64,000 bases of DNA from contig NZ_VFUA01000011.1 of NCBI RefSeq assembly GCF_006440735.1, positions 1 to 64,000 on the forward strand. The letters run 5' to 3'. This DNA comes from Mesorhizobium sp. B2-7-1. Its GTDB lineage: Bacteria; Pseudomonadota; Alphaproteobacteria; Rhizobiales; Rhizobiaceae. The position numbers and the translations under genes are program-made. Position 1 is the stretch's first letter. Each line of letters starts with the position of its first letter. The notes below the pieces were generated by a model. It had not been told where the DNA came from, did not search any database, and saw only the letters and a list, made by a program, of their open reading frames with translations. Of this stretch, positions 48,628 through 54,303 are shown one piece after another.

Positions 48628-48695
48628 AAGGGGGCTGACTCAATCTTGCTGCATGTGAAGGCTGATGTCGCGATTTCCGAGGGGGAATCAGCGCG

Positions 48696-50252
48696 ATGGG
48701 ACGCAGATTTGGGTCGACGAGATTGGCGCCTGCCGGGTTTGTCGTCGAACAAGCCGAAATCGACACCGATTGCATGTTTCTTGATGTGCGCGCCGCGGCG
48801 GTTTCGGCAACATGCCCATGCTGCGGGACCTGTTCCCGTCGAACCCAGAGCCGATACATACGGCAAGTCGCCGATCTGCCCATCGCTGGTCGACGAGTCA
48901 TCCTGCGGGTGACGGTTCGCCGTTTCTGGTGCGATGCCGTTCTTTGTCGCCGCCGCATTTTGCTGAGCGCTTTGGCGACAATGTATTGGCTCCGTTGTCG
49001 CGAAGGACCGGACGTCTCGACACTATCGTCCATCACCTGGGACTGGCGTTGGGGGGGCAGGCCGGCTGCGGCCTTTGCCGATCGCCTGATGATGCCGGTG
49101 AGCAACGATACCCTGTTGCGCGTCGTGCGCCGGCGGTCTGAACAGCCGCGCGATAAGCTCGCCATCATCGGTATCGACGATTTCGCATTCCGACGCGGTC
49201 AGCGATACGGGACGATTGTCTGCGATCTCGAGCGCCGCAGGCCGGTGACATTGCTGCCAGATCGCGAGCAGGCGACATCGCAGGCATGGCTCGCAGGCCA
49301 TCCGTCCATCACGACCGTCGCGCGTGACCGGGGCGGCGGGTATGGCGAGGCGATCGCCAAGGCGCTGCCGCATGCCGATCAGGTGGCCGACCGCTGGCAC
49401 CTAATGGAAAACGCCAGCCGCGCCTTTCTCGATGCGGTCAGCAAAACCATGCGTCAGATCCGAAAGGCAGTCGGCAGCGCCGTCATCGATCCTGGGCTTC
49501 TCACCTATGCCGAGCGGCTGCAATATGACGGATACCTACGCCGGCAGGAGACGAACGGGGCCATCCTGGAATTGTCGAAGCAGGGCCTTTCGATCAAGCA
49601 GATCGTCAAGCGTACAGGCTATAGCCGTAAGCTCGTCCGCAGCGTCATTCGTGGCCAGCGCTCCGACGTGTTCCGCGTCCGCCAGAGCTCGCTCGAGGAA
49701 TGACTTCCCTGGCTCGACAGCCGTTGGGGGCAAGGCGCACGGAATGCATCGGCGCTCTGGCGCGAAATGCGCGAGAAGGGCTTCCACGGCCAGAGCGGTG
49801 TCGTCTCCGAATGGGCGCGGCGCCGGCGGCTGGCCGAAAAGGCCGACCAAAGCGCGCTTGCTCGCACGCCTTCGGCACGAAGTATCGCAAGACTCATGAC
49901 GTTGGCGCGCGACGACTTGTCCAAATCGGATGCCGTGCTGGTTGCCGCGATCGAGAATAATGTCCCTGAACTGCCCATCGCGCGAACGTTGATCGATGAC
50001 TTTCACCGGATGATCCGATCGAAGGCGGTGGCAAAATTGGACGGTTGGCTCGAGGGCGCCAAAGCAAGTCTCGTGAGTTCCTTTGCCAACGGAGTCGAAA
50101 AGGACATGGCCGCGGTCCGCAATGCCATCACATCACCATGGTCGAATGGCCAGATCGAGGGCCAGATCACCAAGCTCAAACTTATCAAACGACAGATGTA
50201 CGGCCGCGCCAAGATCGATCTGCTTCAGGCCCGCCTTGTCGGGACAACCTAG
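48696..50252 (+). pseudogene. ISL3-family transposase with two compensating frameshifts and one nonsense codon
   Basis: N-terminal zinc-ribbon-like CPCCG and RRFWCDAVLCRRRI, then a DDE core (IIGIDDFAFRRGQRYGTIVCDLERRRPV, DRGGGYGEAIAKALPHADQVADRWHLMENASRAF), an HTH and a C-terminal SPWSNGQIEGQITKLKLIKRQMYGRA. Three lesions are visible. Between T-run 48958-48961 and G-run 49051-49057 the family sequence (FAERFGDNVLAPLSRRTGRL, LALGG) runs in another frame, implying one T lost and one G gained. At 49701-49703 an in-frame TGA replaces a probable TGG (Trp), after which the same frame continues LPWLDSRWGQG. The full span is 518 codons. Start at ATG 48696 behind GAGGGGG. Confidence 0.88.
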
Positions 50253-50279
50253 TGGTGAAAACCTAACGCTTGGTACCCG
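50250..50279 (+). repeat. 30-bp inverted repeat, left copy
   Basis: Begins TAGTGGTGAAAA and ends CGCTTGGTACCCG. The reverse complement occurs at 51,624-51,653 with a single mismatch at its 13th base (C here, A there). The first triplet is the stop codon of the ISL3 transposase. The pair bounds the asparaginase gene. Confidence 0.85.
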
Positions 50280-50470
50280 TGACAAAGGACCGGTTCAGGT
50301 GGTTCTCTGCCGTCCCTCGCCGACTGGATCGGCCGGAGGCGCCACGAGCAGTCGTTTGCGTCCGCGTTTGTCAGGGAAGGAATGCGCGCCGGCAAGGCAG
50401 TTGTTACGGCGAGCTTACACAGGCGACCGCTGCGACCATTCCATTTGAGACCCAATCAGTTATATTGGGG

Positions 50471-50497
50471 AACAATTGTTGTCCGATGTTGTCCGAT
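50471..50497. promoter_or_regulatory. Palindrome and 10-bp direct repeat before the asparaginase gene
   Basis: AACAATTGTT (50471-50480) is a perfect palindrome overlapping two tandem copies of GTTGTCCGAT (50478-50487, 50488-50497), ending 16 bases before the chosen asparaginase start. It may be an operator; the regulator is unknown and not encoded in the adjacent unit. Confidence 0.45.
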
Positions 50498-50513
50498 CCG
50501 AAAGCCGCCCTGC

Positions 50514-51494
50514 GTGACATGTATCTGGTTGATCACTACAGGAGGAACGATAGCTTCGCGGCGCATTGACGCCGAGGATCACGTCATCGCGAGCGTTGCT
50601 GGGCAGCAAGTTCGAGACGCAATCCAGGACATTCCTCGCAACGTCGACATTAGGGTCGACGACTTCATCAATATCGTCAGTTGCGCGATGACTTTGCCGA
50701 TTGCGTTCGATCTGGTGCAGCGGATCAACATCCATCTCGCAAAGGAAGATTGCGTTGGCGTGGTCGTTACCCACGGCACCGATACGATGGAGGAAAGTGC
50801 ATACCTCGCCGATTTGCTTCTGGTGAATGACAAGCCCGTGGTATTCACAGGCGCTCAGCGGAGCGCCGATGACCCGGCCAGGGATGGGCCGCGGAACCTG
50901 ACTGACGCCATCAGGCTTGCTGCATCGCCCTTGGCGGTGGGATTGGGCGCGGTCGTCCTCATGGAACAGCACTTCCACGCCGCGCGCGATGTTACCAAAA
51001 GCCACACGTCTCGGGTCGACGCATTTGTCTCGCGAAACCATGGGAAGCTCGGCGAGATTGATGGCGACACCGTCAGTGTATCCCGTCTGCCGGCCCTTCG
51101 GAAAACCTTTGCAGCGAAAGCCATTGAGCCCCGAGTCGACCTTATACGGATGGTGCTTGGCTGCGATGACCGTCTGATCCGCTATGCGGCGGCAAGTGGT
51201 GCAAAGGCAATCGTGCTCGAAGGCTTCGGAAGAGGGAACGCAAACCCAATCGTCGCGAAGGCTATCGAGGAGATCATCGTTGGCGGTATTCCGGTGTTCG
51301 TTGCATCACGATGTGGCGAAGGCCGCGTGTTGCCGATTTATGGCGGTGGCGGTGGCAAGGATTTACTGAGGGCGGGAGTAGTGTTCGGCGGCGATCTTAC
51401 CGGGCCAAAGCTGCGTATCCTGATTTCCGTATTGCTCGGCGTGGGGATGAGCCCAGAAGAAATGCGCCGCGAGTTGGCTGCGGTCTGCGGGTGA
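50514..51494 (+). CDS. L-asparaginase
   Basis: Hydrolyses asparagine to aspartate and ammonia. The 326-residue protein shows both catalytic signatures: LITTGGTIAS with the nucleophile Thr12 and VVVTHGTDTMEESAYLADLLL with Thr89-Asp90, plus VVFTGAQRSADDPARDGPRNL. No clear signal peptide. The start is uncertain: GTG at 50514 gives a family-like N-terminus, but the frame is open back to 50382 and no clear ribosome site is seen. The gene is noticeably richer in A and T than its neighbours and is bounded by 30-bp inverted repeats, so it was probably acquired with a mobile unit. Confidence 0.85.
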   Translation: MTCIWLITTGGTIASRRIDAEDHVIASVAGQQVRDAIQDIPRNVDIRVDDFINIVSCAMTLPIAFDLVQRINIHLAKEDCVGVVVTHGTDTMEESAYLADLLLVNDKPVVFTGAQRSADDPARDGPRNLTDAIRLAASPLAVGLGAVVLMEQHFHAARDVTKSHTSRVDAFVSRNHGKLGEIDGDTVSVSRLPALRKTFAAKAIEPRVDLIRMVLGCDDRLIRYAAASGAKAIVLEGFGRGNANPIVAKAIEEIIVGGIPVFVASRCGEGRVLPIYGGGGGKDLLRAGVVFGGDLTGPKLRILISVLLGVGMSPEEMRRELAAVCG

Positions 51495-51623
51495 GCGAGC
51501 TCCCGCCCCCGCATAGCTCCCTAATAGGACACTTCAAGCGAAGGATCCCCTTCCCCGCTCGCGCCCGACATTTGTCTCGCAACCGATCAACGGCCGCAGT
51601 GGGTCCCTCCGGCCGTTCGATGC

Positions 51624-51653
51624 CGGGTACCAAGCGTTAGTTTTTCACCACTA
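51624..51653 (-). repeat. 30-bp inverted repeat, right copy
   Basis: Reverse complement of the repeat at 50,250-50,279 with 29 of 30 bases identical. The last three bases (CTA) also begin the next palindromic repeat, so the outer boundary is ambiguous by 2-4 bases. The 129 bases between the asparaginase stop and this repeat hold no gene. Confidence 0.85.
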
Positions 51654-51758
51654 AAGCGCGTCGCGCTGAAACGGATTCAGGCGACGCGCTTTAAGTCTTT
51701 GTTTTGATGCATGTCGTTCCCCCAAAACCGCTGCGCACTTTTGGGCGACATGCATTAG
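51652..51758. repeat. Two-palindrome intergenic repeat (RIME-like)
   Basis: First palindrome: AAAGCGCGTCGC (51653-51664) with GCGACGCGCTTT (51681-51692), inner CTGAA/TTCAG. Second: ATGCATGTCG (51707-51716) with CGACATGCAT (51746-51755), inner CCCAAAA (51721-51727) with TTTTGGG (51739-51745), loop holding the core ACCGCT-GCG-CACTTTT. About 107 bases with two large palindromes fits the rhizobial intergenic mosaic element class known from Sinorhizobium. Confidence 0.8.
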
Positions 51759-51785
51759 GCTGGGACCGCAGCGAGAATGCGTCAG

Positions 51786-51817
51786 ACCCGAAAAAGGCCC
51801 CGTTTCCGGGGCCTTTT
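51786..51817 (-). terminator. Rho-independent terminator of clpA
   Basis: A perfect 11-bp stem (51792-51802 with 51807-51817, AAAAGGCCCCG with CGGGGCCTTTT, loop TTTC) starting 21 bases after the clpA stop, with a T-run on the minus strand. Confidence 0.9.

Positions 51818-51837: not shown

Positions 51838-54303
<2,466 letters not shown>

Follow-up and report, generated by a model that had tools for sequence, protein, structure and literature searches.

The window analysed here (64,000 nucleotides of contig NZ_VFUA01000011.1, Mesorhizobium sp. B2-7-1) contains an L-asparaginase gene that lies between inverted repeats, immediately beyond a decayed transposase gene of the ISL3 family. Positions 50252–51651 are very probably a mobile gene cassette of the IS630/Tc1-mariner type, that is, a unit without a transposase that is moved in trans. 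In such a unit a single captured gene is enclosed by a pair of inverted ends whose inner halves are of different types, A and B; we infer that an IS630-family transposase would serve as the engine, cutting the unit ends in trans, and that the gene would have entered between them. The unit would be pasted into the TA of a CTAG sequence with duplication of the TA, and in the window the target would have been the CTAG at the end of the ISL3 transposase gene.

The repeats occupy positions 50250–50279 and 51624–51653, and their 30-nt arms are complementary at 29 of 30 positions (97%), with 1,344 nt between them. In the 6 kb compared, the remaining inverted pairs whose arms are 30 nt long are 70–73% complementary, and pairs with shorter arms (16–19 nt) up to 89%. 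When the TA is counted as target, the unit proper is 50252–51651. Asparaginase is the single gene recognised inside the arms (Pfam PF00710, E 1.4e-54, and PF17763), and a check of open reading frames (ORFs) and Pfam domains found no transposase gene in the unit. Guanine-plus-cytosine (GC) content is 0.587 in the unit, compared with 0.634 in the window and 0.624 and 0.645 in the two flanking stretches. A sequence-only reading of the same DNA had described this repeat pair, with asparaginase as its only content, a left repeat beginning at the transposase stop (the TAG stop of the transposase frame) and a gene less GC-rich than its surroundings, and our analysis agrees on all four points. At the thresholds used, the repeat was seen in its own genome only as this pair. 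The gene is predicted to start with GTG at 50514, as placed by the onset of the conserved part. Relatives of the asparaginase (E ≤ 1e-30) are present in 19 of 146 genomes, its own included. The nearest (81%, genome G098) has no unit ends inside 1.5 kb on either side and its DNA similarity is limited to the gene itself; hence, the asparaginase seems to have been captured and not to be an original part of the unit.

The repeats belong to a widespread family of ends with the consensus C-TA-GTGGTGAAAAYCTGACGCTTGGTACC and the tip GTGG. With at most two mismatches, the core of the end occurs in 30 of 146 Mesorhizobium genomes, and a reversed-pattern control in none. A profile of the end at E ≤ 0.001 recovered 68 of the 146 genomes, with a maximum of 23 ends in one genome (a search run without a shuffled control). 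In a second genus, putatively Methylobacterium, it recovered 57 of 111 genomes; a stricter pattern was found in 11 of 397 genomes sampled from the order. Named records with ends come from Mesorhizobium, Sinorhizobium/Ensifer, Rhizobium, Phyllobacterium, Aminobacter, Microvirga, Methylobacterium and Rhodovastum. Viral contigs gave no end matches, and rows for Lacticaseibacillus, Nostoc and Sulfitobacter from the plasmid search (E up to 10) were weak and were taken for chance. Unpaired ends are common, many single ends having no recognised partner. One equal-scoring single end (44.6 bits; L200 at 817 and L201 at 774 among others) recurs in about a dozen Mesorhizobium genomes and is perhaps an old inherited copy.

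Where ends do neighbour one another, their orientation is that of paired boundaries. An initial set comprised 40 left–right (LR) pairs and one RR pair, duplicate loci counted, which reduced to 30 distinct units. The larger, deduplicated set held 62 neighbouring pairs, of which 57 were LR, 3 RL, 2 RR and none LL, a quarter being the expectation for LR; re-sorting the abutting ends of L199 by hand gave 57 LR, 4 RL and 1 RR. This count was restricted to ends that scored 17 bits or more and lay no further than 8 kb apart, removed pairs with identical end sequences and excluded L001–L036 (short duplicates), L137–L166 (empty-site loci) and L202–L230 (IS630 loci). One of the 57 LR rows is a 2-bp sorting artefact from the abutting L199 units and another a 100-bp copy (L167), leaving 55 of gene size. 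The inner halves of the ends are of two types, A (..CGACCC) and B (..GGGTGG), and are unlike in 29 of the 33 units that were typed at both ends, 24 of the 57 not being typable in this way. CTAG is found on both sides of 38 of the 57 units and on at least one side of 53. Gene-sized units range from 478 bp to 6.9 kb, with a median of 1,289 bp for all 57 rows; the largest ORF, called mechanically, spans at least half of the unit in 38 of 55, and GC content is lower inside the unit than in the remainder of its locus for 33 of 43 (the gene-sized rows with 2 kb of flank). Left–right identity within units is 0.781 compared with 0.763 for shuffled partners, and 191 of 5,000 shuffles were as high; since this is only weakly above the shuffled value, there is no clear co-variation between the ends of a unit. 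Some copies are about 100 bp long, the size of miniature inverted-repeat transposable elements (MITEs), and have both ends and no gene (L167 8002–8101, L168 8002–8100).

Cargo is mostly one gene and varies between units. Our Pfam scan covered a part of the ORFs and units, namely 40 proteins, of which 39 were cargo ORFs and one a transposase, drawn from 34 units, and recognised asparaginase, MAPEG, RibD_C, GNAT, AhpC, GMC oxidoreductase, SnoaL (two units), O-methyltransferase, HAD, sulfotransferase, NmrA, DUF2726, DUF1254/DUF1214, multicopper oxidase, FGE-sulfatase with methyltransferase, GmrSD, ankyrin repeats, nitronate monooxygenase, epoxide hydrolase, AAA ATPase and guanylate-cyclase proteins (five); about a dozen of the scanned ORFs lacked a convincing match. 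Cargo of the guanylate-cyclase type recurs in units L066, L089, L184, L195 and L197. The sole transposase in the scan, an IS1182 in L124, is a nested copy with GGCTGTGTGAAAA ends of its own and was rejected as the engine of the units. IS66 genes in a Rhodovastum unit were likewise set aside, being preceded by GTAAGCG, which we take to be the IS66 tip, and so read as nested.

Some units share ends while differing in content. L183 (790–3704) and L185 (757–2816), and similarly L187 (712–5399) and L190 (693–3499), have equal or near-equal ends in different genomes, with different length and cargo. On plasmids of Rhodovastum atsumiense, L170 (7999–13656) and L171 (7999–15824) occupy one insertion site after traG with related unit ends; the former carries IS66, metallophosphoesterase and amidoligase genes and the latter NTF2, cupin, SDR, HlyD, MFS and MOSC genes, an apparent case of cargo replacement at an occupied site. 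At L199 (770–771) two units abut with one CTAG in common, and thus units can stack.

Movement is evident from empty sites and from a unit found twice. We compared the joined flanks of eleven units with the 146 genomes and read four junctions base by base. The flanks of the L066 unit match G055, among others, at 97% over 264 bp, and for the L048 unit the flanks match at 92% in G090 (as well as L158); in both cases the empty site is exact and has one CTAG where the filled site has two. The filled site reads C-TA-unit-TA-G, with the TA duplicated within CTAG. For L041, L050 and L070 the junction is spanned among the matches listed. In addition, Sinorhizobium shofinae (L093) and S. sojae (L112) share a unit of 738 bp with 100% identity over 741 bp; the two copies are inverted relative to each other and have different flanks, and the match ends at the unit edges.

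The connection with IS630 comes from the target and from the ends. IS630-family elements of about 1.14 kb in the same genomes sit in CTAG, and so have the target, TA in CTAG, in common with the units; in 1991 Tenzen and Ohtsubo reportedly found the same preference in the Shigella IS630. The IS630 end that lies downstream of the transposase has GTGG or GTGT as its first bases and, anchored at the TA, agrees with the unit consensus at 16–19 of 26 positions in five elements (L040, L112, L204, L215 and L218), for example GTGGATTGAATCTAACACATGGTGCC at L040 (18/26) and GTGGATGGAATCTAACACTTGGTGCC at L112 (19/26). We scored 2,731 distinct CTAG sites, a set that included IS630 loci collected on purpose, and 14 reached 16–20 of 26, with a chance tail of 14–15; these were the five IS630 ends and nine sites read as unit ends or partial ends (L169 and L172 being putative). 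About 49 of 306 IS630 matches were examined (29 loci and 20 extra stretches), and the closest complete element, at L112, has 19/26 at one end and 11/26 at the other. One IS630-family transposase whose element has close ends is that of S. sojae pSJ05684a (WP_041415762.1). At L040 and L063 an IS630 lies inward of an unpaired unit end. An origin from IS5 or IS701, considered for the 4-bp CTAG duplication, was dropped after IS630 elements proved to have these tips and to sit in CTAG.

Two loci hold both kinds of end in a single block. At L073 (9117–13955) a unit of the cyclase type is joined tip to tip, with no TA in between, to an IS630 copy whose frames are split, and the block lies in one CTAG; its joined flanks have 11 spanning loci, of which two (G014 and G143) have the site empty with an exact 37-base junction, the others showing changes there. 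At L313 (147–2471) two CTAGs 2.3 kb apart enclose, in this order, a unit-type end (GTGGATAGAATCTGACGCCTGGTACC, 22/26), the gene of a hydrolase, a fragmented IS630 transposase gene and an end of IS630, and the interior is read as holding a decayed IS630 end. Both blocks fit one transposase acting on the two kinds of end, which we regard as suggestive only.

The ISL3 element beside the asparaginase unit is best understood as the target of its insertion. The transposase is split over two frames (48696–49703 and 49767–50252), both of which match DDE_Tnp_ISL3. In three plasmid-borne relatives, from Mesorhizobium sp. WSM4875 (L034, transposase annotated), M. mediterraneum (L035) and Mesorhizobium sp. 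AR07 (L036, without annotation or a matching left end), the transposase stop runs straight into the ISL3 right end without unit repeats; the termini of L034 and L035, GGGTCAGACTC and GGGCTCTGACG, are unlike unit ends. Once a script had removed the insert, the window could be aligned across the junction with all three: identity is 85% over about 1.66 kb for L034 and L035, and 88% over 1.4 kb for L036. The whole assembly lies between CPT and a right-hand neighbour (51838–54303) that we read as clpA from its Pfam domains. In all eight relatives read at this gap (L282, L288, L290–L293, L296 and L299) both the ISL3 element and the asparaginase are absent, and the gap differs from that of the window by roughly a dozen bases or more. 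The ISL3 family makes an 8-bp target duplication, and none was recognisable when the window was set beside these eight gaps. A palindromic repeat at the right edge of the unit (Table 1) has 14 matches in 10 loci, including the window and its copy L262, and is read as a nested insertion into the right CTAG of the unit. At its start it is similar to the tips (GAGCG) of a different IS630 subgroup, and it may be an IS630-type MITE as well. We read the order of events as insertion of ISL3 into the CPT–clpA gap, of the asparaginase unit into ISL3, and of the palindrome into the right CTAG of the unit.

Table 1. Features of the asparaginase unit and the ISL3-family element that holds it (positions in the window).
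Feature	Position	Strand	Remarks
Left part of decayed ISL3-family element, with split transposase	48632–50251	+	Start accurate to a few bases; host of the insertion
Left repeat	50250–50279	+	Target TA 50250–50251 (in CTAG 50249–50252) and terminal inverted repeat, which begins GTGGTGAAAACC at 50252
Left subterminal block	50280–50304	+	Type B (TTCAGGTGG) by eye in the alignment; untyped by the typing script
L-asparaginase gene	50514–51494	+	326 amino acids, from predicted start; sole recognised cargo
Right subterminal block	51599–51623	-	Type A (GGGACCC, reading inward)
Right terminal inverted repeat	51624–51653	-	Element ends at 51651, followed by TA 51652–51653
Palindromic repeat, about 102 bp	51654–51755	.	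Lies at the TA of the CTAG on the right of the unit, between TA 51652–51653 and TA 51756–51757
Right end of the same ISL3 element	51758–51789	+	The unit and the palindrome lie between it and its transposase

Several observations weigh against the interpretation of the unit as an IS630-type cassette. Similarity to the consensus is much lower on the other side of the five IS630 elements, their upstream ends agreeing at only 9–15 of 26 positions, and these genomes also hold several further IS630 subgroups that do not exceed 14/26 at either end. Among the IS630 matches examined (about 49 of 306 in 15 genomes), none has unit-like ends on both sides, and at the loci examined no IS630 gene is enclosed by a pair of recognised unit ends. 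The fused blocks could have arisen otherwise: L073 could represent two insertions followed by loss of the TA, and L313, for which no empty site was found in the 146 genomes, a decayed unit beside a decayed IS630. The rule of unlike inner halves is broken in 4 of 33 typed units (three A–A and one B–B by script), and CTAG is missing on one or both sides of 19 of 57. Two of the four junctions read by base (L038 and L053) are bridged but altered, and L057, L051, L068 and L037 have no junction-spanning match among the matches listed from the 146 genomes. The empty site of the window unit itself is known only from the ISL3 relatives, at 85–88%, where the target is CTTAG and not CTAG.

A different CTAG-using system, such as a site-specific recombinase or another DDE family, whose likeness to IS630 would be convergent, could account for the lack of IS630 elements with matching ends on both sides (in about 49 of 306 matches), and crossover at CTAG would likewise leave two copies of the site. 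We nevertheless consider it unlikely, given an IS630 similarity that is anchored at the TA and reaches 16–19 of 26 against a chance tail of 14–15 in 2,731 sites, and given that L073 and L313 combine unit-type and IS630 ends around cargo and an IS630 gene; moreover, the IS1182 and IS66 copies inside units have ends of their own. Far less probable, and barely credible, is that the ends are unrelated intergenic repeats flanking genes by chance. Common unpaired ends and copies of about 100 bp would suit that explanation, but 57 of 62 neighbouring pairs are LR where a quarter is expected, the inner halves are unlike in 29 of 33 units, empty sites are exact and an identical unit occupies two sites.

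The neighbouring transposase suggests a further candidate, a passenger unit derived from ISL3 and moved by ISL3 transposase, which we hold to be very improbable. The unit abuts the ISL3 gene, and another annotated unit, L112, is also near one; against this, the ends of ISL3 relatives differ, the right end of the window's own ISL3 element lies beyond the unit, and sister units use TA in CTAG. The sequence-only reading had offered this as one of two models: its small unit mobilised in trans was right in kind, but the ends are IS630-like (TA in CTAG, tip GTGG) and do not point to an ISL3-type transposase. The other model, the facing ends of two ISL3 copies around a captured gene, is not supported: the three relatives read pass directly from the stop to the ISL3 right end without repeats. 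The reading proposed to look for intact ISL3 elements with these ends, and the ISL3 relatives read have other termini; in place of an 8-bp target duplication sister units show TA duplicated within CTAG. On its two refuting conditions, the repeat was found in pairs in other genomes, and the asparaginase is absent from this site in the eight relatives read.

With an IS630/Tc1-mariner cassette as the favoured explanation of the window unit, a more general proposal can be made, which we put forward tentatively and regard as doubtful at present. An IS630/Tc1-mariner gene-capture system may exist in which a transposase acting in trans repeatedly packages single host genes between A and B ends and spreads them over rhizobia, methylobacteria and relatives, with cargo exchange (L170/L171), stacking (L199) and helper fusions (L073, L313). 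If true, it would be analogous in effect to integron cassettes. Integron gene cassettes mostly hold one gene per unit and have varied functions, and one-gene units with varied functions would be common to both systems. The units described here differ in having two inverted ends, TA duplication and dispersed sites. Through such units, single metabolic genes with no transposase of their own could pass among soil and symbiotic bacteria. They are easily overlooked as mobile DNA, but their ends are easy to scan for. Whether host genes are packaged and spread by transposases of the IS630 type, as happens in known cassettes of other insertion sequence (IS) families, becomes a testable question.

Mobile insertion cassettes (MICs) are already known, and reportedly include qnrD and the Xanthomonas MICs; searches of the PMC literature, which leaves most subscription papers and all bioRxiv preprints outside its scope, turned up no description of a family of gene-carrying IS630-type cassettes in these bacteria. 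MIC231 of Bacillus cereus has one or more passenger genes between IS-type ends, has no transposase and is moved in trans by the transposase of IS231 (PMC1196294), a member of the IS4 family (PMC2266710). The window unit resembles mobile insertion cassettes in having IS-type ends around a passenger gene and no transposase, and the units as a group differ from MIC231 in their IS630-like ends, TA-in-CTAG target, varied cargo and occurrence in several genera. RUP of Streptococcus pneumoniae is a non-autonomous element of 107 bp with ends like those of IS630-Spn1 and a TA target, which occurs inside other IS elements and for which mobilisation in trans has been proposed (PMC2229807). Like RUP, the units are non-autonomous, with IS630-type ends and a TA target, but RUP is geneless whereas the units carry whole genes. 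IS630/Tc1-mariner elements such as IS630 and ISY100 duplicate a TA target (PMC2170065). The units share with these elements TA duplication, a preference for TA in CTAG and related ends; IS630 elements, however, encode a transposase, whereas the window unit carries an asparaginase gene and no transposase gene.

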